The notes under the pieces: generated by a model
Told to the model about the DNA's origin: nothing
Databases searched by the model: none
Seen by the model: the letters and a program-made list of their open reading frames with translations, nothing else
Program-made: the position numbers and the translations under genes
Shown here: positions 3,086-26,622 of the stretch, one piece after another
How the letters are laid out: every line of letters starts with the position of its first letter
Position numbering within the stretch: the stretch's first letter is position 1
NCBI GenBank assembly: GCA_031267055.1
Contig: JAIRZV010000016.1
Coordinates: forward strand, 1 to 37,434
DNA: 37,434 nucleotides
Direction: 5' to 3'
DNA from: Candidatus Margulisiibacteriota bacterium
GTDB lineage: Bacteria > Margulisbacteria > Termititenacia > Termititenacales > Termititenacaceae

Positions 3086-6000
3086 ATGTATCAGTATTTG
3101 CTTAAAGTGATCTCCGATAGAGTAGGTCCGCCGGACAGAAGGGAGATTGCTAACTCAAATGTTCCAAATGCTAATAATGCCGAGACTGGATTAGTAGATG
3201 CATATGGGAGAGAACTGGATGCTCGTTCTCCGGCCACTGTGCGCTTGCGTTTGGCAGACGGGACTATTGTTGACGCTGCGGTTTTAGATTATGTGTATGC
3301 CGGACAACAAGTAAAACTTCTTACCGATGGAGCAGGTCGGCCTTTGTTTATTGCCAAGCCTACCGGTTATGACGTGCACGGAAATATTGAATACGAATTT
3401 ATGGAAGTTGTGCGTGATGCCGCCGGAGCTATTCACGGACAACGTATAAAAAGAATACTACTCTTAAATGCCGACGGATCTATTTATCGAACCATAAAAG
3501 AAGAAAAAATAATCCTTAACGACTCTGATTTATCAAGAGTGGTTGTAATTGGCACAAATACTGCGGCGCGGCAAGCTTCGGAAAATGAGCGAAACGGGTT
3601 TGCCGAGGATGGTACCGAGTTTAATGTTAGCGAGCTAAGTAAAGAAATCGGCACCACTTTTAATCTGCGAGTGTACAAAGATGGAGCCGCCGGGGAAGCT
3701 CCTAGTGTTTACACGCGGATAATAAAATTTGGAAACAGTTCGGTGGAAAATCTGGCTGTTTTTGATAAAAATGGGCTTCTTTACGTGGTTATGCCGGGTA
3801 AGGCCGCGGAAACATGGGAACTTCATAGTGCTAGATTTAAGGATGAAGTTCAGAACATGGTAATTATCGGGGCAGAAGTAACCGGCAGCTCACAGGTGAG
3901 TTTTGCCGGGGCGGTTGTGGGGGCTGAAGCGGCACAGATTATGCCGAAAAATAATGCTGCGGCTGCTACTATTAGCGACAATCATATTGAGCCTTCGGGT
4001 TTGACAACAACTCTCACGCAGGCCGGAGAATATTTTCGAGATAATTATAAAGGTCATTTGGCGATAACCCAAAGTCGTAACCCGGCTCATGCTTTTAGAA
4101 AAGAAATAGGCAAAGAAGGCGGCGATTATGATATTGATATATATCCTATTGTTGAAAGGTTATACGAAAAATCGGCTACAAACAAAGAGCTATTGACAGT
4201 AATAGAGGCGATGAACAAGAGCGAAAAGAAGAAGCTGTTGCACTGGCTAGAAAAGAGAGCCAAGGAACTGGAAAAGAAGGTCGAAGAGACTGAACTGTTG
4301 GGTGGTATTAAAAGATATCCGCTGCGCGCTACAGCAGATATTTTAATGCAGCTATTCTTGCGTACGCTGGCGCCGGAGGCTGGCGTTGGTTCGGAGGCTT
4401 TACTGGGCGCGATTAATCAGATGGTTTACAGTTATTTCGGCGGTTCGATGAATTACTTTTTCAAAAGCATGATGGACTACAGCAAAGAAACTCATTATGC
4501 AGATAAGAGCGGCGGCAGTTCATTTGTGCTTGCTATGCATGGTAATCCAGAATTGGGCAGGTTTTTAGGGACAATACCTAAAGAATACACTAGAGAATAT
4601 GTGAACACGGAAGATGCAGCTGGCCGGTATGGCGATACCGGTATTGTCTTGAAAAAACAAGGAGATGGGAGTATTGATTTCCGTTTTAGTTACGCGACAT
4701 CTTTGCAGGACGCCAGAGAGTTTGGGGTTTACATTAACGGCTTGATTGCCCGCGCCGAGCGTGAGCTGGCTGATCTCAAGACCCGAAATTCTGAATATTC
4801 GGCCAAAGAGCAAGAAATCTTTGCGCGCCGCGAGGCTGAGCTGGAAAAATTGAAAGAGTCTTACGGCAAAGATGCTCATGGCCGAGATATAGGTTATTTG
4901 GCACGGGCCGAGAAACTGCTGGATAATTTTGATAAAGAGCTGGAGGCTTTAACGGCCGAATACAAAGACATAGTTGCAGCGCAGGAGCTGCTTGGCAGTT
5001 TGTATTCTATTCGCTATGCCGCGGACAGGCGTTTTTCTTTGTCCGACGCCGGACGCCGTGACCGAGGCTGGGCCGGAATCTGGTATTTTCAACTGGATAA
5101 AAAGAAACCTTTGACTCTGCCAAAGGAAATACAGGATCATAAGGGTGTATATATTCATGAAAAAAATAATATATTACAAGTCAATTATTTTCTGACTAGA
5201 GCTGAGCTGGATGAGTATTTAGTACCGGCTTTGAAAAATGCTGGTTATAGCAATGATTTTATTGAAAAAGTCCGGATTGGTTTCAAAATTGTTGAGTCTG
5301 CCTATTATGCCGAGATTGCCAATAGAGGGCCTTTCACCGAATTGCCGGCGGATCAGCGGCAAAGACAGGTGACGGAAGTCGCCGCTTTCACCAGCGTGAT
5401 CTATGATCTGCCGATCGAGCATCTGTATATCTCATTTATGCAGGAAGAGTATTCACTGCACAAAGTGACGCTTGCTATTCAGGCCAACAGCCCCGAGGAA
5501 ACGCATAGCGCTAACGCTTATGGCAATGCCGCTCATGCCCGCGAGAGAGAGACCAGAGCTAACGCGGTGAACGATACTATAATGACCAGATACAGCAAGG
5601 GACGTTTGGTGCATTTGCTGGAAGAATTGATGTCCGAGATTAGCAAAAAACATATTGAGATCGGCAGCAATCTGGACAATATACTGGAGTCGATCGTCTA
5701 TATGTTTGACGCCAGTAAAACACAATCCCAAGCCGAGCGTCTGCTGGCGGTCAAGGAAATTGTGTTAAATTTTCTGTCCGGCAATTTGGACACCAAAGAA
5801 AAACGCATCGCCACTTTGCAGGCCGCGATCCAGATGGATGATTTTGTTTCTGCCGACGCGCAGAGAAATGAACTGCTCAGTCATAATTACCGTTTATTGG
5901 GGCTTATATTGGCCGATCAGCATGGCCGCCGTATCCCGTGGAATATGATACTTGATGAAGTGCTGCAGGACCCAAGAATTTTTCCGGCGGACGACCGCGA

Positions 6001-9000: not shown

Positions 9001-11635
9001 CGAGACTATGCAAAAAATTATCAAAGGTATGTTCTTGCATTACTATCAATGGAACGGACAGTACACCATTCAGCAAGTCTGGGCAAATTTCAAAGACGAA
9101 ATGCAGCGTGACACTATCTCCAACGCTATGCCGACTATTCTTTACCGCGGTGTTGAATATCCTTTCTGGGATTTGCTGGATAAAGTTTTTGCGGAAATCG
9201 ATAAGAAAAAACTGCTGTCGCTGCATAGCTTTAAAGCGAACGGAAAAGAAAACTATGACTATGCTTTGGACGCTATGCGCCAGCGTTATAAAAAAGTCGA
9301 TGAAATTTTTGATGATGTTATGTTGAAAGTCATTTCGAATTTTAAAAGTTATGTTGAGGTTACTCAGCCTTATCTGGATGAACTAGCTATTGATCCTGAG
9401 ATGCAGGCGCTAAATAGAGAAAATCAGAAAGAGCTGGATATGCTTTCCACTTTACTGCCTACTTTACTGTTCGTGGCAAATGCCGGCCTGACTATGGACG
9501 AGATCGAGGACGCGCTGGTTTCAGAAAATGCGGATAAAGATAATTTGTTCAATAAATATAATTCTCTTCCGGTATTGTCCGCGTACCGGCCGGATGAGCA
9601 AGGCAATATCGTCAACTGGACGACAGTTTTATTACAGGCGCAGCAGGCTATGTATTATTCAATGTGGAATAAAAATCAGCGCGGCGGCTGGTATGATATG
9701 CTCGATTTCAATAGAACCAAATCTTATGTTGATGAAATGATGGGCTTTTTGCAAAATCAAGGCTGTTTCAATAAAAACCTACGTGTTCACGCGACTTATC
9801 TGCATTTGCTGCGTGGCGTGATCAATGTCGCCGTGCCGGTAGATAATTCTATTATGGACAACGGTCTGCCGAACACTGTTGGCAATAATCCCAATCCGCC
9901 GAGCTATGTACCAAGGATGTCCACAGAGCTGGGCGTTCCGGCCGCTGCCGCTGCCCTGTCCTCGGTGGTTATGCCGCTATTGGGGCCTGTTCTGTCGCCG
10001 CTGCTGCTCAATATTTTGACTTCAGTGTTGTATCTGAATGTTGTGCCCGGGGTACAGAGAAAAATGCAGGAAACTTACCGGCGTGTGTCTGTTTTGAAAG
10101 AGGAGAAAGAGGATGATAACTTTCTGCTTCGGCTGGAAAAATTGCATCAAGTTTTGGACTTGAGTAAGACCTACAGCGCGGTGGAGGATTACCGGATCAC
10201 GCTGGAGATGATGAAGTCTTTTTTGTGGGGACGGCAGATCAGGAGTTTTATCGGCTCGGCCAAAGCGGAAAGCGATCATGACGTCACCGCTCTGGTGCAA
10301 TTCCCACGCTGGTTTGGCGCGATCTTGGAACTGTCGCCAGCGGAGCTGATGGACGCCAAGTTTATGGAGAGATTTGCCAAAGAGCATCATATGCCGAAAT
10401 GGATTATGCGAGAAATAGTTAAATTCCGCGAGGAAGCGAGCTTCCATGACCTGCACCCGATGTCTATGTATTACAATCTGCGTTTTAGCATGGTGATGTC
10501 CATGTACGCGCTGTTCGGTTTTTCGCCGTTCTCTTTTGCCGGGCCGTTGAGCGCTGTGGCTGGCTCCGCGCTGCTGATCGGAGCGGTGGGTATATTTGCC
10601 TTGTTTGATTATATGTTTATTAAAAACCAAATCGCGGCGCATCACTGGACAGCCGCTGGCATCAATAGAGCCAATGAGAGGGTGGCGGAAGACCGGTCCA
10701 ATACGATCAACGGTATTTTAATACCCAAGATCGAGAGCACGCTGGTCAGCGTATATAAAATGAAGTTCATTTCTTCCCAGCCGGTGTATATACCTGAGAA
10801 ACGTTATGCGGATGGTCTGTATTTTGGCAAGGCGGATGCGCTCAAAATGCAAATAGCGGCTAAACTGCAATACCGCCAGAAATTAGCAGATTTGGCAACA
10901 ATGAAAGAACAGGCCGAAAAAAATATAACGGCGCTGGTCAACCAAATCGCCGGGCCTGAGCTGGCTAGATATGAAAAGGAGCTGCGTCAAGATAAACACT
11001 GGCAGAATAAGAGCGAAGCGGAAATAACACAAGAAGCCAAGCAGCGCGCTTATAAAGATATTCTGAATCTGGCACGCGGAGATGCCGGAATTCAAATATC
11101 TCTTAGATCTGGTCTTGAGTTAAACAAAAAACAAAAAGAAGGAATGTTAAGAAAAATAAACACCTTGTCGCAAGCCGCTGACTCGACTGAGGAGCAAAAA
11201 ATGGCTCTGCTGGATAATTTGATCGATATAGCTAAGCTAGATGATGTGATTGTGCGGACAGAAGCCACTATCGCCAGCAGCCGTGGTGGTATTGGTAACC
11301 CGCTGGGAGCATTAAGAGCCAGACGCCCCGGCGTAAGACTTAACAACTGGCACAATATGGTCCGCAAATATATGCCGGCGGTTTCTATGAGCGCTCTCAG
11401 CGCTTCCGCTTTGCTAACAATTGCCAGCAATCCTATGTCTGCGATTCTCTTAGTGCCTGTGCTGGTGTTTGGCTGGTTTAGCACGAGGAATCTTTTTCTC
11501 CGTCCGAAAAATTATGTGGAAAGAGGCATCGGTGGAGCAGTGCCCAGCCTGCGCGAAGCTCAATTATACGCGGAAAGATATTTTGATGGGCAAGGAACGC
11601 ATAATACAGCAAATGGAGGTGGCGATCATGAATAA
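3086..11635 (+). CDS. Giant 2849-aa protein of unknown function with C-terminal membrane segments
   Basis: I do not recognise a family. ATG 3086 is preceded by GGGAG seven bases upstream and by an in-frame TAA at 3050, so no signal peptide is hidden upstream. Residues about 30-280 are beta-rich (ADGTIVDAAV, NADGSIYRTIKEEK and similar). Lysine/glutamate-rich coiled-coil-like stretches lie near residues 370-410 and 550-640. A long mostly helical hydrophilic middle follows. Near the end are three hydrophobic zones, about residues 2283-2322, 2469-2512 and 2763-2798, each long enough for one or two membrane spans, with a charged coiled coil between the last two. The protein is thus probably inner-membrane anchored by its C-terminus. 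It overlaps the GH8-like gene by eight bases, so coupling is expected. By position it could stand in for the synthase or inner-membrane subunit of an exopolysaccharide system, but I see no convincing glycosyltransferase core. Confidence 0.9.
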   Translation: MYQYLLKVISDRVGPPDRREIANSNVPNANNAETGLVDAYGRELDARSPATVRLRLADGTIVDAAVLDYVYAGQQVKLLTDGAGRPLFIAKPTGYDVHGNIEYEFMEVVRDAAGAIHGQRIKRILLLNADGSIYRTIKEEKIILNDSDLSRVVVIGTNTAARQASENERNGFAEDGTEFNVSELSKEIGTTFNLRVYKDGAAGEAPSVYTRIIKFGNSSVENLAVFDKNGLLYVVMPGKAAETWELHSARFKDEVQNMVIIGAEVTGSSQVSFAGAVVGAEAAQIMPKNNAAAATISDNHIEPSGLTTTLTQAGEYFRDNYKGHLAITQSRNPAHAFRKEIGKEGGDYDIDIYPIVERLYEKSATNKELLTVIEAMNKSEKKKLLHWLEKRAKELEKKVEETELLGGIKRYPLRATADILMQLFLRTLAPEAGVGSEALLGAINQMVYSYFGGSMNYFFKSMMDYSKETHYADKSGGSSFVLAMHGNPELGRFLGTIPKEYTREYVNTEDAAGRYGDTGIVLKKQGDGSIDFRFSYATSLQDAREFGVYINGLIARAERELADLKTRNSEYSAKEQEIFARREAELEKLKESYGKDAHGRDIGYLARAEKLLDNFDKELEALTAEYKDIVAAQELLGSLYSIRYAADRRFSLSDAGRRDRGWAGIWYFQLDKKKPLTLPKEIQDHKGVYIHEKNNILQVNYFLTRAELDEYLVPALKNAGYSNDFIEKVRIGFKIVESAYYAEIANRGPFTELPADQRQRQVTEVAAFTSVIYDLPIEHLYISFMQEEYSLHKVTLAIQANSPEETHSANAYGNAAHARERETRANAVNDTIMTRYSKGRLVHLLEELMSEISKKHIEIGSNLDNILESIVYMFDASKTQSQAERLLAVKEIVLNFLSGNLDTKEKRIATLQAAIQMDDFVSADAQRNELLSHNYRLLGLILADQHGRRIPWNMILDEVLQDPRIFPADDRERSIMTVGFQKLNMFQNENAGKRGAVPYKHRGIVINDLNGYDPETEFPLRQALREVLAEELKKGLILEAQIDNTVNLLITATEWQEKSVPRIAEIMSGFWTNGQLSIAEQDELRGLLLQYFAVDADEMQRIINDLIANKEAIRNREQLYLDTDIGSNHINQINAENLGLKAYLGVYGYARGYNIYTKGSSRPNISEALAAKPKGEKFSEKEIKELFGAAFMDYMSGRTGSDGGINEVTRWIESEHLLLGFSDLRRQNGMQKARESRIIDPTFGKLRRRLGLSDIDNQLYFPESHGELYQELTHVKETQKIHNNGTMASLSKDSLDHIVRNYDTIGYEIMSAVAEYEDTASIDATIEKLKAAGFNVVDLKNIEPETDKDKQECIYDLDKRTITVTPNVEELRKTIIRELDGDSHKIVSYKNGMFTIEFDEGTEGMALWLADSLEAKGYTARANTRWVTVESNINLITDILGAEGEKVKYNRELTFVTNSRDFIKLILDEKLSQDEAKVLVTIFNSHAEYVSDFKGEEERKMNYLSEALRRKVVEVLKDPHVGLYASLDDMEKWINDKSKENLWFAGQTHREQVRAFWRDRRAKLKIKLNEAIKEFAGDHKADIEGFTSINADTLTDRYMEVIEDAQNLLQATADGMLLEINRAVDNYKVIVGQNILAPVSAAAGQNLTVQQILLNMQIDGANSSRAELDAVSSGIDWMGTNDKKIVDALKFLLSVPKNVNKPNQSGAVDPKNIQLSFAQLANGRKLDKENPVGYLAGALKLAAAHQPGQKYVRSKHWNIFVSDLLSSISVNGGREAKNYTGAEATIKTVAELAEHDEVKKILELLKGLSENEIQSLIDQTVAWLEAEARYKASLEPILEGKGMSRDTATVLTDMLFAQDTEDGYRGELSVKANAIEFVDTYHKDSYPKGAHTTGEYEMPDGTKGNGLILNNGILRDYIKARIDAQSAPKRAELDSWKREQESMFNIIRISPKYDSTFKPETFNGSYIGLTPFETMQKIIKGMFLHYYQWNGQYTIQQVWANFKDEMQRDTISNAMPTILYRGVEYPFWDLLDKVFAEIDKKKLLSLHSFKANGKENYDYALDAMRQRYKKVDEIFDDVMLKVISNFKSYVEVTQPYLDELAIDPEMQALNRENQKELDMLSTLLPTLLFVANAGLTMDEIEDALVSENADKDNLFNKYNSLPVLSAYRPDEQGNIVNWTTVLLQAQQAMYYSMWNKNQRGGWYDMLDFNRTKSYVDEMMGFLQNQGCFNKNLRVHATYLHLLRGVINVAVPVDNSIMDNGLPNTVGNNPNPPSYVPRMSTELGVPAAAAALSSVVMPLLGPVLSPLLLNILTSVLYLNVVPGVQRKMQETYRRVSVLKEEKEDDNFLLRLEKLHQVLDLSKTYSAVEDYRITLEMMKSFLWGRQIRSFIGSAKAESDHDVTALVQFPRWFGAILELSPAELMDAKFMERFAKEHHMPKWIMREIVKFREEASFHDLHPMSMYYNLRFSMVMSMYALFGFSPFSFAGPLSAVAGSALLIGAVGIFALFDYMFIKNQIAAHHWTAAGINRANERVAEDRSNTINGILIPKIESTLVSVYKMKFISSQPVYIPEKRYADGLYFGKADALKMQIAAKLQYRQKLADLATMKEQAEKNITALVNQIAGPELARYEKELRQDKHWQNKSEAEITQEAKQRAYKDILNLARGDAGIQISLRSGLELNKKQKEGMLRKINTLSQAADSTEEQKMALLDNLIDIAKLDDVIVRTEATIASSRGGIGNPLGALRARRPGVRLNNWHNMVRKYMPAVSMSALSASALLTIASNPMSAILLVPVLVFGWFSTRNLFLRPKNYVERGIGGAVPSLREAQLYAERYFDGQGTHNTANGGGDHE

Positions 11636-14600
11636 ATGGCTGACTAAAATACTTTCGGATGAAGAGTTATTAAGAAGAGTCAGAATGGGCGGCGGATCGA
11701 AACCGCCGAGAAAACCCTGGCCGCCTCTGGCTAAAGCAGGGATTGCCGTTGCTGGACTTGGCGCAGTTGGTGTTGCTGGCTATCAATGCGAAGCAGCCAA
11801 AGAATCCAGAAGAAGCGAAGTAGAGCCTGCTGAGGCAACGGAAGCCTTAGAACAGGAAACGGCCGAAAGCGAAACGACATCTATCCATGACGAAGGAATG
11901 AAAATTTTAAACGAGGCTTTGGAAAAAACTGACTTGAAAAACGAGGAAAATCTGAACATCAAAATTCAGACCACGCTTGATAATGTTATGCGGGGTGATA
12001 ACGGCAACAAATTAAAAGTGACGCTTGGCGACGCGATATTTATTCAAGATCCCAGCCAGCCACAAAATGGCATTGTTTCGGAAAGTGTTTATTTCCTGCG
12101 CATCGCCGCGGCTAAGCCTAGCGAGGAAACCCAGAAGTTTTTTGACGGGCTGCTGCGTGGCTTTGATCAAATGACTGCGCTGGGTGGCGGCCACGGCGTG
12201 TTCCCGGCTTGGACGGTAAAGATCGAGAACGACCGTTTGGTTTTGAATACAGACAAAGACGCTGGCGCGCATAATTCTGCCGCTGACTCCGATCATGATC
12301 TGATCATGGCTTTGCTGGTAGCCGTGCAAAATGTAAAAAACAATGATTGGGAGGATAGTGATTACGCCGAGCGGCTGGAAAAACTGATCGATGGTCTGGC
12401 TAAAGAATATATTGAGGTGGCTGGCCGCTGGGCGCTGAAGCCTTCAGAAGATTGGTACGGCGATGAGCAGGGCGAATGGTTTTATCTGGACTACTTTTCC
12501 CCAGAAACCTGTTTTGCGCTGGCGCAATATTTAGCTGCCAAAAATGATCCGCGCGCGGCGTTTTGGCAAAAGTGCGGAGAGGACAGTCTGGAAATATATG
12601 CCGCTTGTCTGGAGCAGATCGGCTGGGTGCCTGAGCAGGTTTCCCTTGGCATTGATGAGGATGGCAATCTGCTGGTCGAAGCGCGGCAAGGCCATGGTTT
12701 GCAGGGTTGGGACGGCATTCGCGCGCCAAGCCGTATTGCTGCCGGTCTGCCTTATTATATTAAGGCCAATAAATTGACCGAAGAACAAAAAGCGATTTTT
12801 ACAGAATATCTAAATAAATGGAATGATCCTGCCGGCAAAGCTTCCGGCATGGCTCCGGCTTTGACTGCGGCGGCTTATCTGCCTCTGGCTGTGCAGCTGG
12901 GCGCTGTTGATTTGGCCGCCGAGATGCTGTCCGTGCTGGCCAAAGAAAATACCGCCGCGGTTTATGCCAGTCAAGATCAGTATTACGAAACCTCGTTGAT
13001 TTTAAAAGCGTTGGTTGATGTCAGCGCGCCTTATGATCTAGACAAGTATTCTCGGATGGGCGACTATACTCCGGCTTGGCGGTTAGAAGACATTTGCGAT
13101 CCACAGGCTGGTTATTATGGCCAAGTTGGTGTTTTGAGCGCTTTTGGCGCGCTGGGTTTTGTGATCAACCCCGATCCGCCCAGCCAGTTTAAGATTTATA
13201 AAGGCATTAACACCCATATTATTACCGCCGAGAGTATGCTTTCTGGTTTGGCTGACGCAATGGCCGCGGGTGATATGGCTAAATTTCAGGCCATCTTTAA
13301 TATGATCGATGCGCTGTGCGTAGAAAATTATAACAAGGGCAAAGCCAAAAGATTATTTTTGCCGAGAGTGGTGACCTTGAAGCCGCAGGATAGCGCGCGT
13401 AAATTGTCTTTAGACAATTTTACTATACCCGGAGGCAATGACGGCAAAGCTTCCAGCAGCGGCGCGGATTTAATGCTGCTGGCTTTATTGATCAAGGCTC
13501 TGGACATGGATTTTAATACAGGATTGATGAACGCTCCAAAGTTTTTGTACGATGCTCAGAACCGGATCAGGAATTTTATCGCCAGATACGCCAGCGAGAT
13601 GGTCAAGAGCAGTGGCGATGTTTATCCTTATACGGATGAGACTGGCGCAACGCGGCTGCTATTGACACCAGGTGGTTTGATTGGCAGTAATGAGTCACCA
13701 AGAGATCAGAGCATTATATACGAGTATCATACTGATTATGTACAAAATCTGGATATTTTGCGCTGCATCGTTCAATATTTTAGGCCGGGATTTGGCATTG
13801 GTAATAGTAAAGGTTCCTCAGAGTTGTATACAATTTTTACCGCACTGTTGTCCGATACGGAAGAATTGAAAAAAAGGATTGACGCGAAATTTTCTGACGC
13901 CGTTAAATATCCGCAAGGGATGCCGCAAACGGTGTACATCTACCTGCCCCACGCGTCTGGGCAGCCGGTGCGAGTGCTGGATGCCAATGAATTTAGCGCG
14001 GAGATGAATCCAAATAAGAAAGAGGAATATATTTCATTGAATTACCCGGGCTCCAATGGCTATGATTACGGTTACTATTATACGCAAATCATGCAAGCCG
14101 CCAGCTCCGGCAAACAACCAGCGATAGATTTTAAGCAAACGAAAGCGCAGGTCAATGTGAATGAGGACTATATCTATGGCAAGACCGGCATCGGCGTGGT
14201 GGCCAATCATGTTGCACGTCATCATGGCGTGGCCGGTATATCTCCGTTGCATGATCGGAGATTGCAAAATGATTCGGAAATCGGCCGCGGCCGCCTGCAG
14301 ACAGCGGATTCTAAAGCATATGATAGGACGCCTTACCCGTTTGCTGTGTCAATTCCTATACTTTTTTTCAATATTGATATTATTGGCGACTGGGAAAAAG
14401 TTTTCAGCGACCGGCTGCGCGCGGCGCTCAGGAGAATGAGCGAAGCGGATTATGCGGCGCAGGGCGAACAAATGTACACCAATACTTTGCTGGCTTATGC
14501 CGGATTGCCCACTGCGAAAATGGTCAAAAAGGGCATGACTACCGAGCGCGTTGCCATTACCGCTATACGGGTAGATGACTTTCTGGAATCAGTTCTGGGT

Positions 14601-16295: not shown

Positions 16296-16320
16296 GAGAG
16301 CCTAAATTTGGAGGAAAGTT

Positions 16321-19300
16321 ATGACAGATGTAGTGACCGGCGTTAATAACAATTTAAACTGGCCGGAAATAATAACCAATCGGCAAACTCCTCATATAGG
16401 TGGTTTAAATGAGGATGAGTGGAAAAATTTGTTGGGGTTTACTACTTATGTGCAAGAAGATCACTATGATCCTTATATTCAAAATATTTATGATGAAATA
16501 ACTTTTCTAGAGCAAAATTATTGGCAAGATGAAAAGTATCGCAGTAGATTAACCCAAGATTTGGCAGAAATAAATCAAATTATCTCTGAGGCTACTAAAC
16601 CAAAAACGTTTAATTATAGTCCCAGACAATGCCTGTCGTTTTGTTATGCGGCGATCAGTTTGAATATTGTTCTTGGTGACAAGACTGGCAATACGACTTA
16701 TTACAATAATGCGCGCGAATTACTGGCGCGTTTTGATGTAAGACATGGAAATTATGTATTTCGCGCTCGGAATGAGGAGGTAACGCTTGCTTCCCATACT
16801 TTTGATCAAAGTTTATGGTTTGTGTCGCTGGTCGGCCAGTTGATCGAGCGTGGTGTCATTACGCCAGATACAGAAAAGACAAATAATATAGTTGGTCTTC
16901 TTGGTAATACAATAAAAACTATCGGGAATAATTATATTAATGAAAAAAATGAAGAAAAGAAAGCCGAATTATATATAAGAGGAAGATATTTTACTGCGGC
17001 TAGCCTTTATTTAGATGCCAAGCTGGAAAGAACAGAAGCGACCAGAGCCGCAAAGTATAAGGAAATATATGACAATTTGAAGAAGGATGGTACTTCCTCT
17101 CCTTTGTTACTTGTTTTGAGATTAACTGTATTAAATAGTTTGCTTTCCACTTCTCTCGATGCTGATGTTGTGAGGGATTATGGTGTAGATATGGCAGAAC
17201 TGGAACGATTTTTTAATTGGACTTTACTGCCTTCCGCAAATGCTATTAAACAAGCCCCAAATACTCCACGTGAGCGTGCCATAAAAGAAACAGACAAATC
17301 GTATTTGCAGGCTAAATATAATAGTTATGTGCAATACTATATGTCCCGCGCCAATTACTTGCGCACCGCAGCGCAGCAAGCTATAAAACAAATTAAATCT
17401 GCTGCGAATATCAATACAGCTATCAATAACGCCGCCACCGCTGTAAAGAATTTCAATGATTTTCTCTATGTCAGGGTTACTAATGATTTAGCGGACAGAG
17501 AAAATTCTTATTTTAAGGATTTTCTGACCTCAGCCAAACAAGAAGTGGAATTTCTCGAGTTAGATATTGTTTTGACCAGAGCGGAGCGCGGCGATACCAG
17601 TGTTAATTTAAATAGCTTAATGGGTCGTATTAACAGCCTAACGGCCAGCACTCCTGGAAACAACGCCCGCCGTTATTATTTCCGGTCGCGTTTGTTCAGT
17701 TTGCAGATCAAGCGCGAACCGAATCCAGAAAGAAAAAATATAATTCGCCGCAACGCTCTTGCTTTTATTATCGGTGGCCAAACCAGCGATGGAAAACCTA
17801 TTGCAGATAATGTGCTGACGGCTGATTATAATTTGAATAATATTTATAGAACTAACAATGCCGCTGACAATAAAAACTTGCAGCTCAACGCCCTCTGCGA
17901 AGCGGCGGAATTGCTTATGGATTTAGATAGAAAGAGTGAAGCCAAAGACTACTATGCGATTTTGGAAAGGCCTGCGGTATCCAATTTGACAGCTTTATTG
18001 AGTGTTGACCCGAGAACTAATCGATATGCTTTTCAAAGCGCGGATTTGAATGCGACATCCGCCCGAGTGCTGTTTTTGGCTGCCAGCTTAAAAGACAACA
18101 AAACTCTGTCAGAGGCCATTGCTAACCGGTTGATAGATGTGTTTGGTCCGGCGGGAAGTCCTAAAGACGAAACTATATTCAATGGCGCGCTGGCTCTTAG
18201 GGAAGGCTTCCGTTTTGACTATGTTTTAGATAATTTGAAAGCGCTGAAAAAAGCAGGCCAATGGGCGGAAGGTTTGGCTAAGATAGATGAAGAAGCGGCT
18301 TTGTTTGCACAGAACGCGGATAACCAGCGCGAGCGCGCTTTCCAATTAGCGGAGTGTAATAATCTGGCTTACCTTTACGACAATGGCAGCAAGCCGGATT
18401 TGAGCAATTTGGCGCAATACACTAATCCGGCCAGCCGGCAGAGACTGCATTATTTAAGAATGGCACAGTTGGCCAGCGACAAGGCTACACCCAGTGGTAA
18501 AGACCTGTCCGGTATTTTGCGAGAGATTGGCGATTTGGTGCGCTGGGATAAAAACTCCCAGAAACTGACTTTCACTTTGTCGAGCGAGTATGATGTTAGA
18601 CTAGATACTGTAAATAAGGATACACAAAAATCGCCGAAAGAATATAACGACGAGTTTGAGTTTGCGGTAATCGCTGAATATTTTGAGACGCTGAATAGTA
18701 TTTTGAATAGTGAAGAAAAAACCGGCCTGCGTCCAGCTGATCCACAATCCGCCGCAGAATTAACCGCCGCGTTTAGAGATTATTTTGATAGGCAGAAAGC
18801 GCGGAATGTCAACAGTCCTTCAGAACAAGATTTGCGCTTTTTGTTCTTCGCCGCGTTGCTCCTTGACGGCGATCAGTCAAAACCGAAAGACATTTACGAG
18901 AAAATTATCCACTGTTATCCCTTGCCAGTGCCGCGGGGCTATGCAGTGTCTGTCAATGGAGTGTCGCAAACTTATTATTACAATTCCGACGCCAAGCGTG
19001 CTTACTGGGAAGCGCAGGCCGGTCTGGTTAATTATTATGCTAAACAAAAGAATTTTGCCGCGCAGAAAACGGCATTTGATAGGATCGAAACCGAATACAA
19101 AAACCGCATTAATCCGCAAAACGTTGCTGGTTATGCCGCCGATGCCGCCTATATCAAAAATCTTTATTTCAACGCGCTGTTGATGCAGTGCCTGTCCGAT
19201 CTGGAGCAAGAAAACCGGAATACAGCCGTTGAACATTTGGGAGCATGGAAAACCCTGCTGGCAGACCCCGGCATTGCCGGACAATTAACTCCGGCGAAAC

Positions 19301-22300
19301 GTGAGCAGCATAAATATACTTTGATCGAAATGTGGACCCGCGCGGCCATGCTGCTGGACACACAGGAAGATCAGCCGCAGGACGCGCTCGACGAACTGCG
19401 CAAAATTTACAACGACAAAGAGTACAATTTATCCAGCGCGCAAAACGCCGCCGCCCGGCTCTGCGCCGACATTATTCGCGGCAATATTGAGGGACTGATT
19501 GCCGCAGACAGGCAGAGAACTACCGGTCCGCGCCTGACCTTTACTCCTGACGATACTTTTAACCCTGACAATATTTCTAAAAATTATTTTACAAAGAACT
19601 TAACGGTTGGCGCTTATACAGACCTGCCGCTTCGTTACGAAAAACAGTTGTTTATTTCTTCACTGCTCAATCGAGCCAAGCTTGGCGATCAACAGGCGGT
19701 TGAGACTTTGCAGGCCTTGCTTGCGCCGGCGCGCGCCGAGCAGACAACTGCTGAAGTTGACAAGGATTTCTTCTCGCAGATCGAGCCGCGCCTGGAGCTG
19801 GATCAAGCCTGGAATTCTCTGAATGATAAATATCAGGGTTATCGGCCTGCGGGTATCAATGCCGAAAATATTGCCAAAAAATATCTTGCTTCTCCATATT
19901 CTGCTGGCACACACGATGAGGCGAAAGACCTGCTCCGTCTGGCCTGGTCGAAAGGCGCTAATCCACAATGGGCTGTCAACGGGACGACTATTACGATCGA
20001 CAATAGGCCAGTACCGATAAAAGGCTATGCAGACCTGGCCGGATTTACCAATAAGCAGGCTCGCTCTGCCGCGGAAAATCTCCTGACGCTTTACGGTTAT
20101 ACTACGGCGACACGCGATGAGAACAAACTGGCCGGATTGATTAAGAATATTCTAACCCCGGGGGTGGCCGACGAAGAATTGTGCTGCAAGGCCCAGTTGG
20201 CCGAAGCCGAACAATACCTGCGGCTCAGCGGCGATCCGGACGCTGTAAAAAATTTACCGGCAGTCCTGTCAGCCTTGGGCTTTCTGTCCGGCGCCAGGAC
20301 CGACCGATACATTCGTCCGGCTATCGAGAAAGCTTTGGAAACCACTTTGGATGTTCTGGGTGATATTTTTACTGAAAATGCCGAAAGCCGTACTTCGGAC
20401 GATTATTATACTTATTGCAATCAGCGTATCCGCTATGTGCTTTTGCAATATGAAAATGCCCCGCAAAACGCTTATGACGCGCTGGAAAAACTGAGCAAGC
20501 CGCTGAATGAAGGTGGGCTGGGCTTGTCCGGCGACAGCCTTACCGGAAAACTCCTGCTGGATACAATTACTGCCAATAGGAATACGTTGCTTCTAGAAAA
20601 CGCGGATAAAATAAATGGCGCCGCAGAAAAGCTGAATTTTGTGCCACAGCCACAGTCGGATCAGGATCAGAAAAAAATTCTTGATGAGTACCTGCATATT
20701 TATGACGAAGATTGCGCCACAAAATTCCAAAAACAATTGCTGATCGGTATCTTGCTGCTTTTGGCCGCTCAGACCCGGATAAGCGGGGCGGAGCCTGCGG
20801 AGTCCGGCGATGATGACGCGGCGGAGATGGCTGTGGAAATACTCCTGGGTCTGCGTCCGAATGATGATCCGCGTAAATTGACTTCCGCAGAACGCTTGGC
20901 GGAAACCGTAGAGTTTATGGGGCAGGAATATTTTGACCTGCTTGAACCGCGCCTGCGTCTGGATTATGCCTGGGCTTTGCTGAAGCCGAATAACCCATCA
21001 GCGGCGGCTTTGAATATTACGGAGCGGATCGCCAGAACAATTATTGAACAGGGTGAGAAAGTCACGGCCAAGATAATTTCTGAAGCGGAAGACCTGCTCC
21101 GTCTGGCCTGGGCTAAGTCTAAAGATAGTGCAGATGGCAAGCCTAAGCCGCAATGGGCTGTCGACGGCAAGAATATTGGCACGGATGACCAGCCGGTGTT
21201 CATAAAAGGTTATGCCGCACTGATCGCTGAACCAACGGATTTTACCGACAAACGAGTGAACGGCGCGTTTGAAAATCTGATCTCACTGTACGGCTACAAT
21301 CCTCTGACGCGCGATGCTGAATCAAATAAAGGCAAATTGGCCGAACTGGTTAAACAATTACAAGAAACTTATGATAGCGCCACGTTCTCTCCACAGCTCA
21401 AACCGGCCGTCAAAAAACTGTACATCAAAGCTCTGCTGGCGCAGGCGGAGACTTATTACCGAGATAAAAATATGATCGACATGGCTAGGGCGCTGGATCT
21501 TTTGTTAGCGAAACCGACTGAGTCTACCGGTGATTACAGCGGCCTGTTATCTGGAGAAATCGGTATTCCAGAAAAAACCGAGGAGTATTATGCCTACTGC
21601 GAGCAGCGCGTCCGTCTGGTTTTGCAACAAGCGCAAGACAACAATAAATCCAAATCGGCGGTGGAGACCGGCAATGATCTGGAAATTTTGCGCGGAGAAT
21701 TAAATCTGATCAGTCCGGAATGGCTCCCGACCAACTTGACCGAAAAATTATTGAATTCTTTTATTACGGTCAACAAGCCGAACATCACACCTCAAGAGAC
21801 CAAGGATGTTATGGCTAATCTGGGTTTTGACATCACAGCAAGCCGCGAGTATTTCGAGAAAACCTGCCGGACCGATTATCAACGCCGCTTATTCATCGGT
21901 ATCTTGTGCAAGCTGGCTGATTCGACCTCAGACGCGCCGAACACCCTTACCCCTGATCAACGCGCGAAGCTTCTTTCGGACGGCGATAACGACATTTATG
22001 AACAGATCGTGGAAGATTTGTTGCTGGACAGCCAAAACCAATACAGGCCCACGACTTTTGCGCAGGATCTTCTGAGTCCGGAATACGCGGCGACGATCCT
22101 GCCGCGTCTGCGTCTGGGCATGGCTTGGCGCGGACTGACCGGTAATGATAATGAATCAGCCGACCAAGTAATTTCCAAAGACTGGTTGGCTGTGGCTGAT
22201 GGAGTGGTCAGTGTTGTTGATGCTTTGTGCGCTGTAAATTTGACGCTGAGAAAAGAACTGCAGAACGAAGTCGATTCTTTGCGTTATTTCGTAATGATCA

Positions 22301-25300
22301 AGAATAAAGATGAAAATAAAGATACACATATAAAGAAAATCAATGAGGCTTTGACTGATTATTACTTGCCGCAAATCGCCGACAATCCGGCAAACATGGA
22401 TGCCAGGACTTTGGTGCTAAGCGCCTATGCCTATGATTTGCAAGAATACTCCGTAGCGTTGAGTTATATCGACGAGAATATTCGATATACTGGCGAAAAT
22501 ATTCGACGTGATGCCGCGCTCGACCCGATTCTTTTCTCTACAGTAGTGGACTGCTGGAGCAAGCAAGAGCCAAAGACGGTAATACCAGAGGTTAGAGTGC
22601 GACAATACATCACTGCTATTCAAACCCAGCCGGAACTTTACGCCAGCGACAAAGCCAAAACCGCGCTGGCCAATATTATCTGTGCTTATGTTTCTCAACA
22701 GTTGGAGGACGGCAATCTGGACGATATCAGTTGGCTGAAAAATATTATTTTGCCGTCAGCCGAACATTCGCCGGGGACGCGTACATATATTGAAGCTAGG
22801 ATCGGTAAGCTCAAAGTTGATGCGTTGATAAAAGAAGGCAGATATGAAGAAGCGCTCAAGCTCTTGCAAGGAACGGATAAAAAGAGTGGAGTTCCGCTAA
22901 GCGGAACGGCTGAAAATGGCGTGGTATATACGCCGGTTAGTTTTAGTTTAAATAGAGAGAATGCGACAACCGGAATTAGCGCGATACTTACAGCAGATAC
23001 TGGTCCAGCTGCGGCGGTTGAAAGTGATGCAAAATCCGGAATTTTGCAAAAATTAGATAGCTTGGAGACAGAATATAATGGCAAGCTGGATTCGCGGCTT
23101 ATTGTTTCCCTGCGCAACGATGTGCGGCGGCAGCAGGCGCAGATCAAAGAGGCGCAGGGTTTTTACACGGAGGCTGTGGCTCGTTTAGACGAAATTGATT
23201 TGAGTTTTATCGATGACGAAAAAGAAAAAACTCAGGCGCAGTTTTATGACGACTTACAGCACGCGCGTATTTTTATTAAGCAGGAAAAATTTGCTGATGC
23301 GCAGAGCATACTAGAAACTCTCCCTGCTCTTGCTGATTCCGCAGAGCTCAAACCCGATGAGCGATGTCTGATTTATTTCAATCTGTTGGACATCGCCCTG
23401 CAAAACCCAGAAGTCGCCTTGGGTTATTTGGCCAAATTAGCAGAATTGTTGTCCGCCGAAAACAATGACGCGCCGGAAAAAAATATTAAACCGGAAACTG
23501 TTTTACTTTATGACTTACAGCGTGTGGCCGCGCGCAAATTGTTGCAAGGACAAATGCCCCCGGACGAAAATATGCCCACGCTGGAAGATGTGGAGCAAAA
23601 AATAAACGCTCTGCCTGCGGGCTACAAACAACAGACTTATAGAAACTTGCTGGCCGAGCTGCAAGCCTACGAACATTTAGAGAGCCGGAGTTATTTACAG
23701 ACAGGCAACGGCGCGATTATTGCGGAATTTGCGTTGCCGCAAACTTTTGAGCCGGCGGACGGTCTGGATTCCGAGGAACACGCGCTGAACATGCGGAAGA
23801 TTTATCTCGATAGCCAGATTACCGCCGGCGGAGCCGCCGCGGCAAACGCTTTGACCAAGATGGATGCGGATCTGGAAAGCGTTGAGACAGCACTCAAAAC
23901 AACAAAAAGCGAAGGTCTGCAAATTGTTCTGCAAAAATATGAAACTGAGTTGCTTTTCCTGAAGTACAGTTTTTTAAGAACTCATTCCCAATATGACGCC
24001 AGCGACAAAAAAATAGAAGGCCGATTGGCTGAAATTAATGAACGGCTGGACAAATCCATAAAAGCCCTGAAAGATTTGGCGCCGTATTCTGCTGTTAATG
24101 TTGAGGAACGGCGGGAAAATCTGCGCGAGTCTTCCAGCGACACGCCGCCCTATGATCTTTTGGAAACGCAGATCAAAGAAGATCTGGATTATTTTTATAA
24201 AGAGAATGGGAAGGATATTCAGCCGGGACAGTTGGAATTCTGGAAATTCAAGAAAAAACTCGACGATCTGTTGAATAATTTTGTCTTGCTGGGCGATAGT
24301 CCGCAGGCCAGCGCCGAGGAAATTATCTTGGCGGTCGACAAACTCTATGATCTACGGCTTGGTCTGGTGGAGTCTGGCGCGGTCTCTGGCGGTCAGCTTC
24401 TGCCCAAGATTGAGGCTTTCCGCGCGCAAATGCCGGCAGGTTTTGTTTTTACCGGTGAGGAAAAGGGCTACGGTTATTACTTGATCTTGAACCTGTTGGA
24501 AAAGGATCTGGCCAAATTCAGCCAAATTGCCAAAAAAGTTTATGACGCGGGTTATTTAAGTAAAAATGAACCGAACGATTATTATGCGCAGTCCAGCGTT
24601 CTGTTGATCGACTTGATAAACACCCAGCTTAAAAACAATGCTGAGTTTAACACTTATATTGGAGCAAACACCCTACCCCAAATTAATTATAAGCCGGATG
24701 GCGACAATCTGGTTACCAAATACGGTGATATGAGTTTGACCACAAATCTAAAGAAAAAAATCGCTTTAGTCGAGGACGAAAATTCTCTAGCCGAGGACGA
24801 AAATTCTCTCAATCTGCCGGCGGAGTTTAAGGCATGGGAGAAAGTGTATAAAAAACGGATAAGCGGCGCGTTGTCCGGAAGCTATAAATACACCGCCGGC
24901 AAGATGTTGCTTGATTATCTCGGCGCCTTGATCCGGCAGCGTGATGAAGGGCGGCCTGTTTCCGGATTGACTACTGTGAATAAAAAGATCAAGTTGTTGT
25001 TTGATTTCCTGAACACTCTGCCGTCGGACAATTTGTTTTCCGACTCGCATTATTATCAGCTCAAAATAGCCGCTTTGAAAATACAATACGCTTCGTCTTT
25101 GTTGTCTAAGGCCGTCGACGCTCGGGACTGGAATACCCCGGCTGCCGGACAGCCCAAACCGCGAAAGATAAGCGATACTTTGCCGGACTATCTGGGCCAA
25201 GCGCGGGATATTCTCGAGGAGCGGCTGGAACACGTCGCGTCGGACAGTGCGGAGCATAAACTGTGCTCGTATTTGCTGTCCGTGCTGAACGGTGAGGACC

Positions 25301-26622
25301 AAGAATTGCCAGAGATTTCCGGTTTGCCGGAAGAAGCTAAATATTTGTATATAGAATTAACTTCTCGTCTGGCCTCCGCACTGCTGGCTCAGCAGCAGTC
25401 CGGTATTCAGCGTTTGGGCGGTGTGGAAAAAAACAAAATCCTCTCACTGACCGACACTATAAAATCCTGGGAACCTGATCATGCCGGGTTGCCGTATCTA
25501 GAACAAAACATAAAAAATGCGACGCAAAAATTGTCCCTTAGTCTGCTGGACAGGCTTGACTTAACCTCCAGCGAAAACACTTCCGTTTGGTGTTCTATTG
25601 ATAATCAGAATGTCCAGCTGGTTAAGAACGGACTTTTCGGCAGTTTGGCGTCTAAGACTGAAAAAATAAATTTAAGTAAAGAGGTTCCTATTATCTGGAC
25701 ACCGTGGAATTTCCTGAACCTGCGGGCGACTCCGGGCGTAGATCTGCAGTGGCTTAAGTCGACGGACAGTATTTCTCAACAAGGCCTATACGAAGGTCTT
25801 TTGTTTACAAAACAAGAGACACATTCATCTGAAACCCCGTTTTTAGAACCGATAATTGTGCCGAAAATTGGCCTTGGTTTTGACCTTATTGCGCCGCAGG
25901 GTTGGCTGCTTGGTTTTTGGCAGCCTTCACTTAGCGGAGATGTTAACTATAGCTATTCGCCGCAACAGCGCTCGCCTTACAATGCCAGTCGTTTTGGTGA
26001 AAAAAATTATTGGGATCATCACTGGTCTTTCGATGTGGCATTCAACAATAAGTTTGCTGTAAACAAATTTTTCGGTTTTGAAATTAATAATGCGCTGCAC
26101 TGGAGCCTGGATAATGGCATGTTGGCTACGGAATCCTACTATTATAAAGAAGAAAAAACGCTGTCCGGCGCTTTCCAATACAATCCGAGGGGACGGGTGA
26201 ATTTCAACTTTGGTGAACTAAGTACGTATTTAGGCGGCGGTTTGTTATTTGAACAGGCCAACAATCTCAATAGCGGCTGGCAATGGGCTGACCGTTTCGG
26301 CTGGGCGGCTGAATTGGGCTGGTCTTATTATAGTCCGCGCTGGTCTGGGAGTGTGGCTGGCAATTTTAGTATACTTGGCAAAGATATTAACACCGGACTG
26401 AATTTCCGTTTTACCCGGCCAAATTGGCCGACCCTGTTGCTGGGCCTTAATTATACGCTGCTGCCCAAAAGGATAACTAACAGCAGTCAGGATATTACTT
26501 ATGATTCTGGTAAGCATACGCTGACGAACACTACAGACACGCGCTCTTCGCAGAATAATCTCAGCGTGTCTCTGAGCGTGGAAATCCCGCTTTCGCCATT
26601 TGACAAACATAACAAAAAATAA
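16321..26622 (+). CDS. Giant 3433-aa TPR-like protein with C-terminal outer-membrane beta-barrel
   Basis: ATG 16321 follows GGAGG at 16310-16314 by six bases; an in-frame TAA at 16303-16305 excludes a longer start. Most of the protein is an alpha-solenoid rich in TPR-like helix pairs, for example EGRYEEALKLL, YTEAVARLDEI and EKFADAQSILETL in the region near residues 2170-2350. Residues ~90-190 contain HTFDQSLWFVSLVGQLIERG, which could be part of an (alpha/alpha) toroid. Residues ~1104-1960 hold two full and one partial ~370-residue repeats. From about residue 3090 to the end the sequence becomes alternating, aromatic-rich beta strands (WSFDVAFNNKFAV, GRVNFNFGEL, SVAGNFSILG, LSVSLSVEIPLSPF), as in a 14-16-strand outer-membrane barrel; the last strand ends in Phe with a short DKHNKK tail. 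BcsC, PgaA and AlgK/AlgE-type polysaccharide exporters combine TPRs with a barrel, but they are much shorter. No signal peptide is visible, which is odd for a barrel protein. Confidence 0.88.
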   Translation: MTDVVTGVNNNLNWPEIITNRQTPHIGGLNEDEWKNLLGFTTYVQEDHYDPYIQNIYDEITFLEQNYWQDEKYRSRLTQDLAEINQIISEATKPKTFNYSPRQCLSFCYAAISLNIVLGDKTGNTTYYNNARELLARFDVRHGNYVFRARNEEVTLASHTFDQSLWFVSLVGQLIERGVITPDTEKTNNIVGLLGNTIKTIGNNYINEKNEEKKAELYIRGRYFTAASLYLDAKLERTEATRAAKYKEIYDNLKKDGTSSPLLLVLRLTVLNSLLSTSLDADVVRDYGVDMAELERFFNWTLLPSANAIKQAPNTPRERAIKETDKSYLQAKYNSYVQYYMSRANYLRTAAQQAIKQIKSAANINTAINNAATAVKNFNDFLYVRVTNDLADRENSYFKDFLTSAKQEVEFLELDIVLTRAERGDTSVNLNSLMGRINSLTASTPGNNARRYYFRSRLFSLQIKREPNPERKNIIRRNALAFIIGGQTSDGKPIADNVLTADYNLNNIYRTNNAADNKNLQLNALCEAAELLMDLDRKSEAKDYYAILERPAVSNLTALLSVDPRTNRYAFQSADLNATSARVLFLAASLKDNKTLSEAIANRLIDVFGPAGSPKDETIFNGALALREGFRFDYVLDNLKALKKAGQWAEGLAKIDEEAALFAQNADNQRERAFQLAECNNLAYLYDNGSKPDLSNLAQYTNPASRQRLHYLRMAQLASDKATPSGKDLSGILREIGDLVRWDKNSQKLTFTLSSEYDVRLDTVNKDTQKSPKEYNDEFEFAVIAEYFETLNSILNSEEKTGLRPADPQSAAELTAAFRDYFDRQKARNVNSPSEQDLRFLFFAALLLDGDQSKPKDIYEKIIHCYPLPVPRGYAVSVNGVSQTYYYNSDAKRAYWEAQAGLVNYYAKQKNFAAQKTAFDRIETEYKNRINPQNVAGYAADAAYIKNLYFNALLMQCLSDLEQENRNTAVEHLGAWKTLLADPGIAGQLTPAKREQHKYTLIEMWTRAAMLLDTQEDQPQDALDELRKIYNDKEYNLSSAQNAAARLCADIIRGNIEGLIAADRQRTTGPRLTFTPDDTFNPDNISKNYFTKNLTVGAYTDLPLRYEKQLFISSLLNRAKLGDQQAVETLQALLAPARAEQTTAEVDKDFFSQIEPRLELDQAWNSLNDKYQGYRPAGINAENIAKKYLASPYSAGTHDEAKDLLRLAWSKGANPQWAVNGTTITIDNRPVPIKGYADLAGFTNKQARSAAENLLTLYGYTTATRDENKLAGLIKNILTPGVADEELCCKAQLAEAEQYLRLSGDPDAVKNLPAVLSALGFLSGARTDRYIRPAIEKALETTLDVLGDIFTENAESRTSDDYYTYCNQRIRYVLLQYENAPQNAYDALEKLSKPLNEGGLGLSGDSLTGKLLLDTITANRNTLLLENADKINGAAEKLNFVPQPQSDQDQKKILDEYLHIYDEDCATKFQKQLLIGILLLLAAQTRISGAEPAESGDDDAAEMAVEILLGLRPNDDPRKLTSAERLAETVEFMGQEYFDLLEPRLRLDYAWALLKPNNPSAAALNITERIARTIIEQGEKVTAKIISEAEDLLRLAWAKSKDSADGKPKPQWAVDGKNIGTDDQPVFIKGYAALIAEPTDFTDKRVNGAFENLISLYGYNPLTRDAESNKGKLAELVKQLQETYDSATFSPQLKPAVKKLYIKALLAQAETYYRDKNMIDMARALDLLLAKPTESTGDYSGLLSGEIGIPEKTEEYYAYCEQRVRLVLQQAQDNNKSKSAVETGNDLEILRGELNLISPEWLPTNLTEKLLNSFITVNKPNITPQETKDVMANLGFDITASREYFEKTCRTDYQRRLFIGILCKLADSTSDAPNTLTPDQRAKLLSDGDNDIYEQIVEDLLLDSQNQYRPTTFAQDLLSPEYAATILPRLRLGMAWRGLTGNDNESADQVISKDWLAVADGVVSVVDALCAVNLTLRKELQNEVDSLRYFVMIKNKDENKDTHIKKINEALTDYYLPQIADNPANMDARTLVLSAYAYDLQEYSVALSYIDENIRYTGENIRRDAALDPILFSTVVDCWSKQEPKTVIPEVRVRQYITAIQTQPELYASDKAKTALANIICAYVSQQLEDGNLDDISWLKNIILPSAEHSPGTRTYIEARIGKLKVDALIKEGRYEEALKLLQGTDKKSGVPLSGTAENGVVYTPVSFSLNRENATTGISAILTADTGPAAAVESDAKSGILQKLDSLETEYNGKLDSRLIVSLRNDVRRQQAQIKEAQGFYTEAVARLDEIDLSFIDDEKEKTQAQFYDDLQHARIFIKQEKFADAQSILETLPALADSAELKPDERCLIYFNLLDIALQNPEVALGYLAKLAELLSAENNDAPEKNIKPETVLLYDLQRVAARKLLQGQMPPDENMPTLEDVEQKINALPAGYKQQTYRNLLAELQAYEHLESRSYLQTGNGAIIAEFALPQTFEPADGLDSEEHALNMRKIYLDSQITAGGAAAANALTKMDADLESVETALKTTKSEGLQIVLQKYETELLFLKYSFLRTHSQYDASDKKIEGRLAEINERLDKSIKALKDLAPYSAVNVEERRENLRESSSDTPPYDLLETQIKEDLDYFYKENGKDIQPGQLEFWKFKKKLDDLLNNFVLLGDSPQASAEEIILAVDKLYDLRLGLVESGAVSGGQLLPKIEAFRAQMPAGFVFTGEEKGYGYYLILNLLEKDLAKFSQIAKKVYDAGYLSKNEPNDYYAQSSVLLIDLINTQLKNNAEFNTYIGANTLPQINYKPDGDNLVTKYGDMSLTTNLKKKIALVEDENSLAEDENSLNLPAEFKAWEKVYKKRISGALSGSYKYTAGKMLLDYLGALIRQRDEGRPVSGLTTVNKKIKLLFDFLNTLPSDNLFSDSHYYQLKIAALKIQYASSLLSKAVDARDWNTPAAGQPKPRKISDTLPDYLGQARDILEERLEHVASDSAEHKLCSYLLSVLNGEDQELPEISGLPEEAKYLYIELTSRLASALLAQQQSGIQRLGGVEKNKILSLTDTIKSWEPDHAGLPYLEQNIKNATQKLSLSLLDRLDLTSSENTSVWCSIDNQNVQLVKNGLFGSLASKTEKINLSKEVPIIWTPWNFLNLRATPGVDLQWLKSTDSISQQGLYEGLLFTKQETHSSETPFLEPIIVPKIGLGFDLIAPQGWLLGFWQPSLSGDVNYSYSPQQRSPYNASRFGEKNYWDHHWSFDVAFNNKFAVNKFFGFEINNALHWSLDNGMLATESYYYKEEKTLSGAFQYNPRGRVNFNFGELSTYLGGGLLFEQANNLNSGWQWADRFGWAAELGWSYYSPRWSGSVAGNFSILGKDINTGLNFRFTRPNWPTLLLGLNYTLLPKRITNSSQDITYDSGKHTLTNTTDTRSSQNNLSVSLSVEIPLSPFDKHNKK
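19630..22200 (+). repeat. Two and a third in-frame ~1.1-kb protein-level repeats in the giant solenoid gene
   Basis: Unit A is about 19630-20719, unit B 20720-21869, and partial unit C 21870-22200. Units start with (Q/R)xLFI-type helices such as KQLFISSLL, KQLLIGILL and RRLFIGILC. They then share IEPRLELDQAW / LEPRLRLDYAW / LPRLRLGMAW. A and B also share EAxDLLRLAWxK, PQWAV(N/D)G, IKGYA, LYGY and a Tyr-rich YYxYCxQRxR helix. This is duplication within the gene, diverged at DNA level. Confidence 0.8.
24771..24809 (+). repeat. Perfect 21-bp-period tandem duplication (EDENSL twice)
   Basis: CGAGGACGAAAATTCTCT occurs at 24771-24788 and again at 24792-24809, 21 bases apart, adding seven codons in frame. 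Perfect identity at DNA level points to a recent slippage event in a linker of the giant solenoid protein. Confidence 0.9.

Follow-up and report, generated by a model that had tools for sequence, protein, structure and literature searches.

The gene cluster described here (genes A to F) resembles, as judged from the sequences, the arrangement of a cellulose secretion locus, is almost unrecognisable in its individual proteins and changes much faster than the surrounding genes. It lies in the window that was analysed, a stretch of 37,434 bp representing a whole contig of a genome of 1.54 Mb and 74% completeness, which belongs to a Termititenax-like member of the Margulisbacteria whose kinship points to a termite gut. 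We put at about one half the probability that A to F encode an envelope-spanning machine which moves and trims a glycan and is laid out like Bcs and Pga, in which exopolysaccharide secretion is synthase-dependent. Most likely, the cluster works like one of these systems, combining export with trimming, without being a member of Bcs.

The core of the cluster consists of three genes on the + strand, A (3086..11635), B (11628..16295) and C (16321..26622), coding for proteins of 2849, 1555 and 3433 amino acids, respectively. The first-pass annotation had described them as co-oriented and either coupled or tightly spaced, and the open reading frames agree with this: the start codon of B lies inside the end of A, so that the two genes overlap, and only 25 bp separate B from C. 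The ATG codons of B (at 11628) and C are both preceded by GGAGG, and a longer form of B starting from a TTG at 11469 is probably spurious. Three further genes follow on the same strand, D (26637..28517), E (28520..30388) and F (30449..37333). D and E are paralogues with lipoprotein-like N-termini (LFGC and VNSC, respectively), and neither yielded a meaningful match in Pfam, NCBIfam or a PDB sequence search with a D/E profile. F codes for a protein of 2294 amino acids with a Sec signal, CarboxypepD_reg repeats and a FlgD_ig/CHU_C-like tail. In an alignment, four of the proteins, A, B, D and E, begin with a similar short leader (3086-3190, 11628-11794, 26637-26780 and 28520-28675, respectively), LLKxISD...GG.PP, which precedes a hydrophobic stretch and a Cys in B, D and E and is a possible common targeting signal. 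Upstream, the cassette is flanked by an aminotransferase gene (131..1315, + strand), which occupies the same position in the two genus-mates, Candidatus Termititenax aidoneus (G001) and T. persephonae (G003), and serves as yardstick for the identity of the cassette genes. The AbiEi/AbiEii type IV toxin-antitoxin (phage defence) pair found between this gene and A (1548-2886) is missing from the corresponding place in both genus-mates.

B consists of a lipoprotein-like N-terminus, two GH8-like modules and a C-terminal part without known family; a PDB sequence search with a profile of the second part of B returned nothing meaningful. The GH8 signature reported for this protein by the first-pass annotation was borne out in module 1 (11916..13148, + strand), which matches Pfam family PF01270 with an E value of 3e-06 and 26.9 bits (cut-off 24) and appears as canonical GH8. 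A profile of nine sequences from the phylum, with BcsZ left out, retrieves CelA of C. thermocellum (E 1.4e-06), and an alignment of ten sequences that includes E. coli BcsZ shows no variation at the three catalytic positions of the latter, namely Glu, the Asp in the motif SAxDxD or (A/S)DxD, and the Asp in YDxIR that acts as base. On these features, B should be regarded as a glycosidase and its module 1 as a member of GH8. The relatives of B carry plain lipoboxes (LVVSGC, LAMTGC), while that of the window copy is weaker. Module 2 (13146..14400, + strand) is a diverged GH8-like unit. Its motifs SES..YG and NASASDAD are easily seen in the relatives, whereas of the two Asp residues the window copy no longer has the first, and the YDxIR base was not found. 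Pfam recognises GH8 in this module in G008_9 alone (27.2 bits), and a home-made profile reached an E value of 4e-4 in G007 with no match in the window copy. Judging from these motifs, module 2 is probably non-catalytic.

C was expected to combine helical repeats with an outer-membrane barrel of 14-16 strands, and both parts were recovered. The helical repeat region comprises about 3000 residues, and within it (19315-21400) stretches a few hundred residues long are repeated. No TPR match was obtained in the window copy, while one relative matches TPR_14 (3.3e-05, over the cut-off) and another TPR_16 (3.8e-04, under the cut-off). An AlphaFold model of the last ~360 residues, based on four sequences (pLDDT 66, pTM 0.61), contains 14 long strands according to DSSP and predicts a 14-strand outer-membrane beta-barrel at 25378..26619 (+ strand). 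As judged from this modelled architecture, C is an outer-membrane protein. No signal peptide was seen in the window copy (16321-16500) or in the three relatives whose N-terminus is present, an unusual feature if C is an exporter of the outer membrane; a misplaced start codon as the cause is ruled out by an in-frame stop 18 bp upstream of the ATG. The best fold match of the barrel is CymA of Klebsiella oxytoca (Z 22.1, rmsd 3.4 over 283 residues), followed by OmpG (Z 18.9), at sequence identities of 6-9%. Type 9 translocon barrels also match, below CymA and OmpG, and the barrels of BcsC and PgaA are not among the fold matches listed. CymA and OmpG are monomeric 14-strand barrels like the C-terminus of C, but they are stand-alone porins without a TPR arm, and CymA serves as a cyclodextrin uptake channel (PMC8049027).

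This best match keeps up the option of polysaccharide uptake, which the first-pass annotation had already raised. C would then admit cellulose or xylan oligosaccharides of the termite gut through a CymA-like channel, B would digest them in the periplasm, and D and E would bind glycan at the surface, all of which fits with the occurrence of xylan and chitosan enzymes within GH8 and with the named relatives being termite symbionts. However, the genes of the window include no recognisable sugar permease or receptor of the TonB/SusC type, the cassette diverges in the manner of a surface antigen locus, and neither a periplasmic arm of 3000 residues nor a cytoplasm-facing membrane giant is known to us from uptake loci. 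We therefore consider uptake unlikely. A role in protein display seems quite unlikely. In that case A to E would secrete and mount F or another adhesin for attachment, with the GH8 enzymes opening a glycan layer locally, as may be suggested by the large, secreted, repeat-containing F, which two genomes encode together with the other genes of the series, and by the type 9 translocon barrels among the fold matches. Yet these barrels score lower than CymA and OmpG, F has an ordinary Sec signal and is far better conserved than A to E (73.5% versus 23-55% identity), and the two GH8-like modules would be hard to account for.

A has relatives in four other genomes and had been described as a membrane protein, which holds for its C-terminal fifth only (about residues 2282-2800). 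There, one membrane hairpin spans residues ~2282-2323 and another ~2466-2508, with a further membrane segment at ~2776-2794, while the N-terminal ~2280 residues lack a signal peptide. Because the membrane segments form hairpins near the C-terminus, the bulk of the protein and the loops are predicted to be cytoplasmic. Searches of Pfam and NCBIfam recognised no domain in A, including no glycosyltransferase, and a PDB sequence search with profiles of its two halves gave nothing meaningful. A wide scan of 84,980 genomes with short patterns located A at three loci only, all in Margulisbacteria. A cyclic-glucan synthase (NdvB/GT84), an idea taken from the length of A, was dropped as it had no profile support.

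The main indication of an enzymatic function in A is a motif series at 10184..10777 (+ strand, residues 2367-2564), consisting of ED-x(36)-QxxRW and a downstream KxxFxxS. ED, QxxRW and [KR]xxFxx[ST] are kept in this BcsA-like order in six of six relatives, over a span of 198-220 residues in five of them as compared to 200-243 in four GT2 enzymes of the lineage. In shuffled sequences, the first part occurs in 0.24% and the full series in 0.005%, values to be read with the series having been picked out post hoc. The series is a hint of a BcsA-like C-terminal half, and the membrane hairpins are positioned like those in the second half of BcsA. A may thus be a strongly derived, membrane-embedded GT2-like synthase with surviving ED, QxxRW and FxVT-like motifs, which would make the cluster self-sufficient, but this is rather unlikely. 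One hairpin is located ~45 residues before ED and takes up the place in which a GT-A fold would need its first half, leaving no room for it. In addition, hhalign comparisons of A with BcsA and with the GT2 enzymes of the lineage were insignificant, 31 of 200 column shuffles scoring as high as the match to the GT2 enzymes, and the AlphaFold model of residues 1830-2640 (six sequences), mostly helix, reached a pLDDT of only 39 and was discarded. Because of the post hoc motifs, the insignificant profile comparison, the poor model and the position of the hairpin, no synthase is claimed for A. An even more far-reaching proposal, which we regard as distinctly improbable, is a new, self-contained class of polysaccharide synthase-exporters, in which a rearranged GT2-type synthase with a cytoplasmic extension of ~2000 residues (A) would be coupled to a double-GH8 lipoprotein and to a TPR-barrel giant arriving at the outer membrane with no Sec signal; symbionts of termite guts would swap the whole set as a surface cassette that determines their type.

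The polymer may instead be made by a separate enzyme, an option foreseen in the first-pass annotation, which had recognised neither a glycosyltransferase nor a PilZ domain in the trio; none was recognised in A to F here either. This option is supported by two CelA/PgaC-like GT2 synthases in the genome of the window, both on other contigs, and by free GH8 genes without signal peptide in the sister genus, which are arranged tail-to-tail with CelA/PgaC-like GT2 genes (L057:5997-9165, L070:2-2326).

The gene order, whose conservation in related genomes had been named beforehand as a check, is retained among the relatives. T. aidoneus has the complete series A to F, and T. persephonae has A to E, running to the contig end, plus a second A-B copy, so the trio are neighbours in both. 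B and C are together in G007, where A is on a separate contig and both are close to contig ends, while C and D are kept together in G006 of the sister genus; in all, B-C and C-D are both seen in the sister genus. This conservation rules out that the trio is a product of chance or of the assembly. The GH8 gene adjoins the exporter gene in the window, T. aidoneus, T. persephonae and G007, and the two are fused in one case, G008, which belongs to a second family. There, the gene behind A codes for a protein that has the second GH8-like module, and next comes an ORF of 5569 amino acids, containing GH8, long helical-looking stretches and a stretch judged by eye to be barrel-like. This ORF includes an exact tandem repeat of 3968 bp with a period of 4152 (C20:11847-28556, L022/L023), on a contig with 100 Ns, which may be an assembly artefact or a recent duplication. 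In T. aidoneus, a type II Cas9-Cas1-Cas2 set (L017:14306-18688; GC of Cas9 0.37) lies directly downstream of F.

The conserved order is accompanied by a divergence of the cassette in sequence. Between the window and T. aidoneus, the aminotransferases share 88% and the F proteins 73.5% identity, as opposed to 33% for A, 26-41% for B, 34-55% for C and 42% each for D and E; with T. persephonae, the values are about 75% for the aminotransferase and 23% for A. Over all these genomes, A to E thus range at 23-55% versus 74-88% for the aminotransferase, and the A protein of the window is nearer to that of G007 from another genus (38%) than to those of its own genus. The GC contents of A to E are 0.46-0.49 in three genomes (0.51 for the partial E of T. 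persephonae); in the same genomes, the genes flanking the cassette upstream have values of 0.52-0.58. The divergence of A to E could result from fast change, cassette exchange or old paralogues. Together with the low GC content, it goes beyond the first-pass annotation, as do module 2 of B, the lack of a signal peptide in C and the failure to find BcsB, BCSC_C and PilZ.

The claim of a divergent machine for synthesis, trimming and export is in keeping with an inner-membrane giant, a GH8 hydrolase and a TPR-barrel outer-membrane protein following each other in one conserved run, as in bcsABZC, with the catalytic positions of BcsZ and with the fusion in G008, which has a counterpart in the BcsZC fusion of Zymomonas cellulose loci (PMC7112194). 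Membership in Bcs did not hold up, however. The proteins of the cluster are several-fold larger, BcsA is not recognisable, and BCSC_C (PF05420), BcsB and PilZ were each found in none of ten genomes, the window's own genome among them being 74% complete. Further differences are a GH8 lipoprotein with a second GH8-like module, the additional genes D to F and the signal-less C. The barrel of BcsC has 16 strands and that of C is predicted with 14; with this, and with no BcsB, BCSC_C, PilZ or glycosyltransferase domain in A detected, a divergent cellulose locus is not supported. The PNAG system pgaABCD likewise pairs a lipoprotein hydrolase with a TPR-barrel exporter, and the TPR arm of PgaA binds the polymer and stimulates its hydrolase (PMC9384988); PgaB, however, is a deacetylase/hydrolase from a non-GH8 family, and the cluster lacks a PgaC-type synthase. 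An abundance of huge proteins, with no COGs assigned, has already been noted for Margulisbacteria, and the parts of this survey of Margulisbacteria and Omnitrophota available to us name no such operon; its threshold of 5000 amino acids lies above the proteins of the window and below the 5569-residue ORF of the second family (PMC11573180).

The export reading is supported by the GH8 catalytic positions, the CymA/OmpG-topped barrel, the TPR matches of the relatives, the kept gene order, the behaviour of the cassette, the lack of uptake components in the window and the precedent of PgaA. It is weakened by the lack of a glycosyltransferase in A to F and of BcsB, PilZ and BCSC_C, by an uptake channel as closest barrel fold and by the missing signal peptide of C. 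In such an export machine, A would sit mostly in the cytoplasm, held by an inner-membrane anchor, and would deliver or make the polymer, while B may act as a lipoprotein enzyme trimming or clearing beta-glucan-like chains in the periplasm, its module 2 probably only binding the chain. The helical arm of C would lead the chain to the protein's own 14-strand channel in the outer membrane, the lipoproteins D and E may be helpers, and F may be a surface protein co-produced with the machine. A to E would form a cassette that stays at one site, evolves fast and may be swappable, like capsule-type surface loci, and its contrast with the slowly changing genes around it suggests that surface identity is under selection. 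The operons known for synthase-dependent glycan secretion are few and compact. If the proposed function is true, this class would be widened by a giant, conserved version from a symbiont with a small genome, in which no synthase, co-polymerase or c-di-GMP domain is recognisable, and the cluster would be a candidate for the means by which the symbionts acquire a coat and become attached to their partners.
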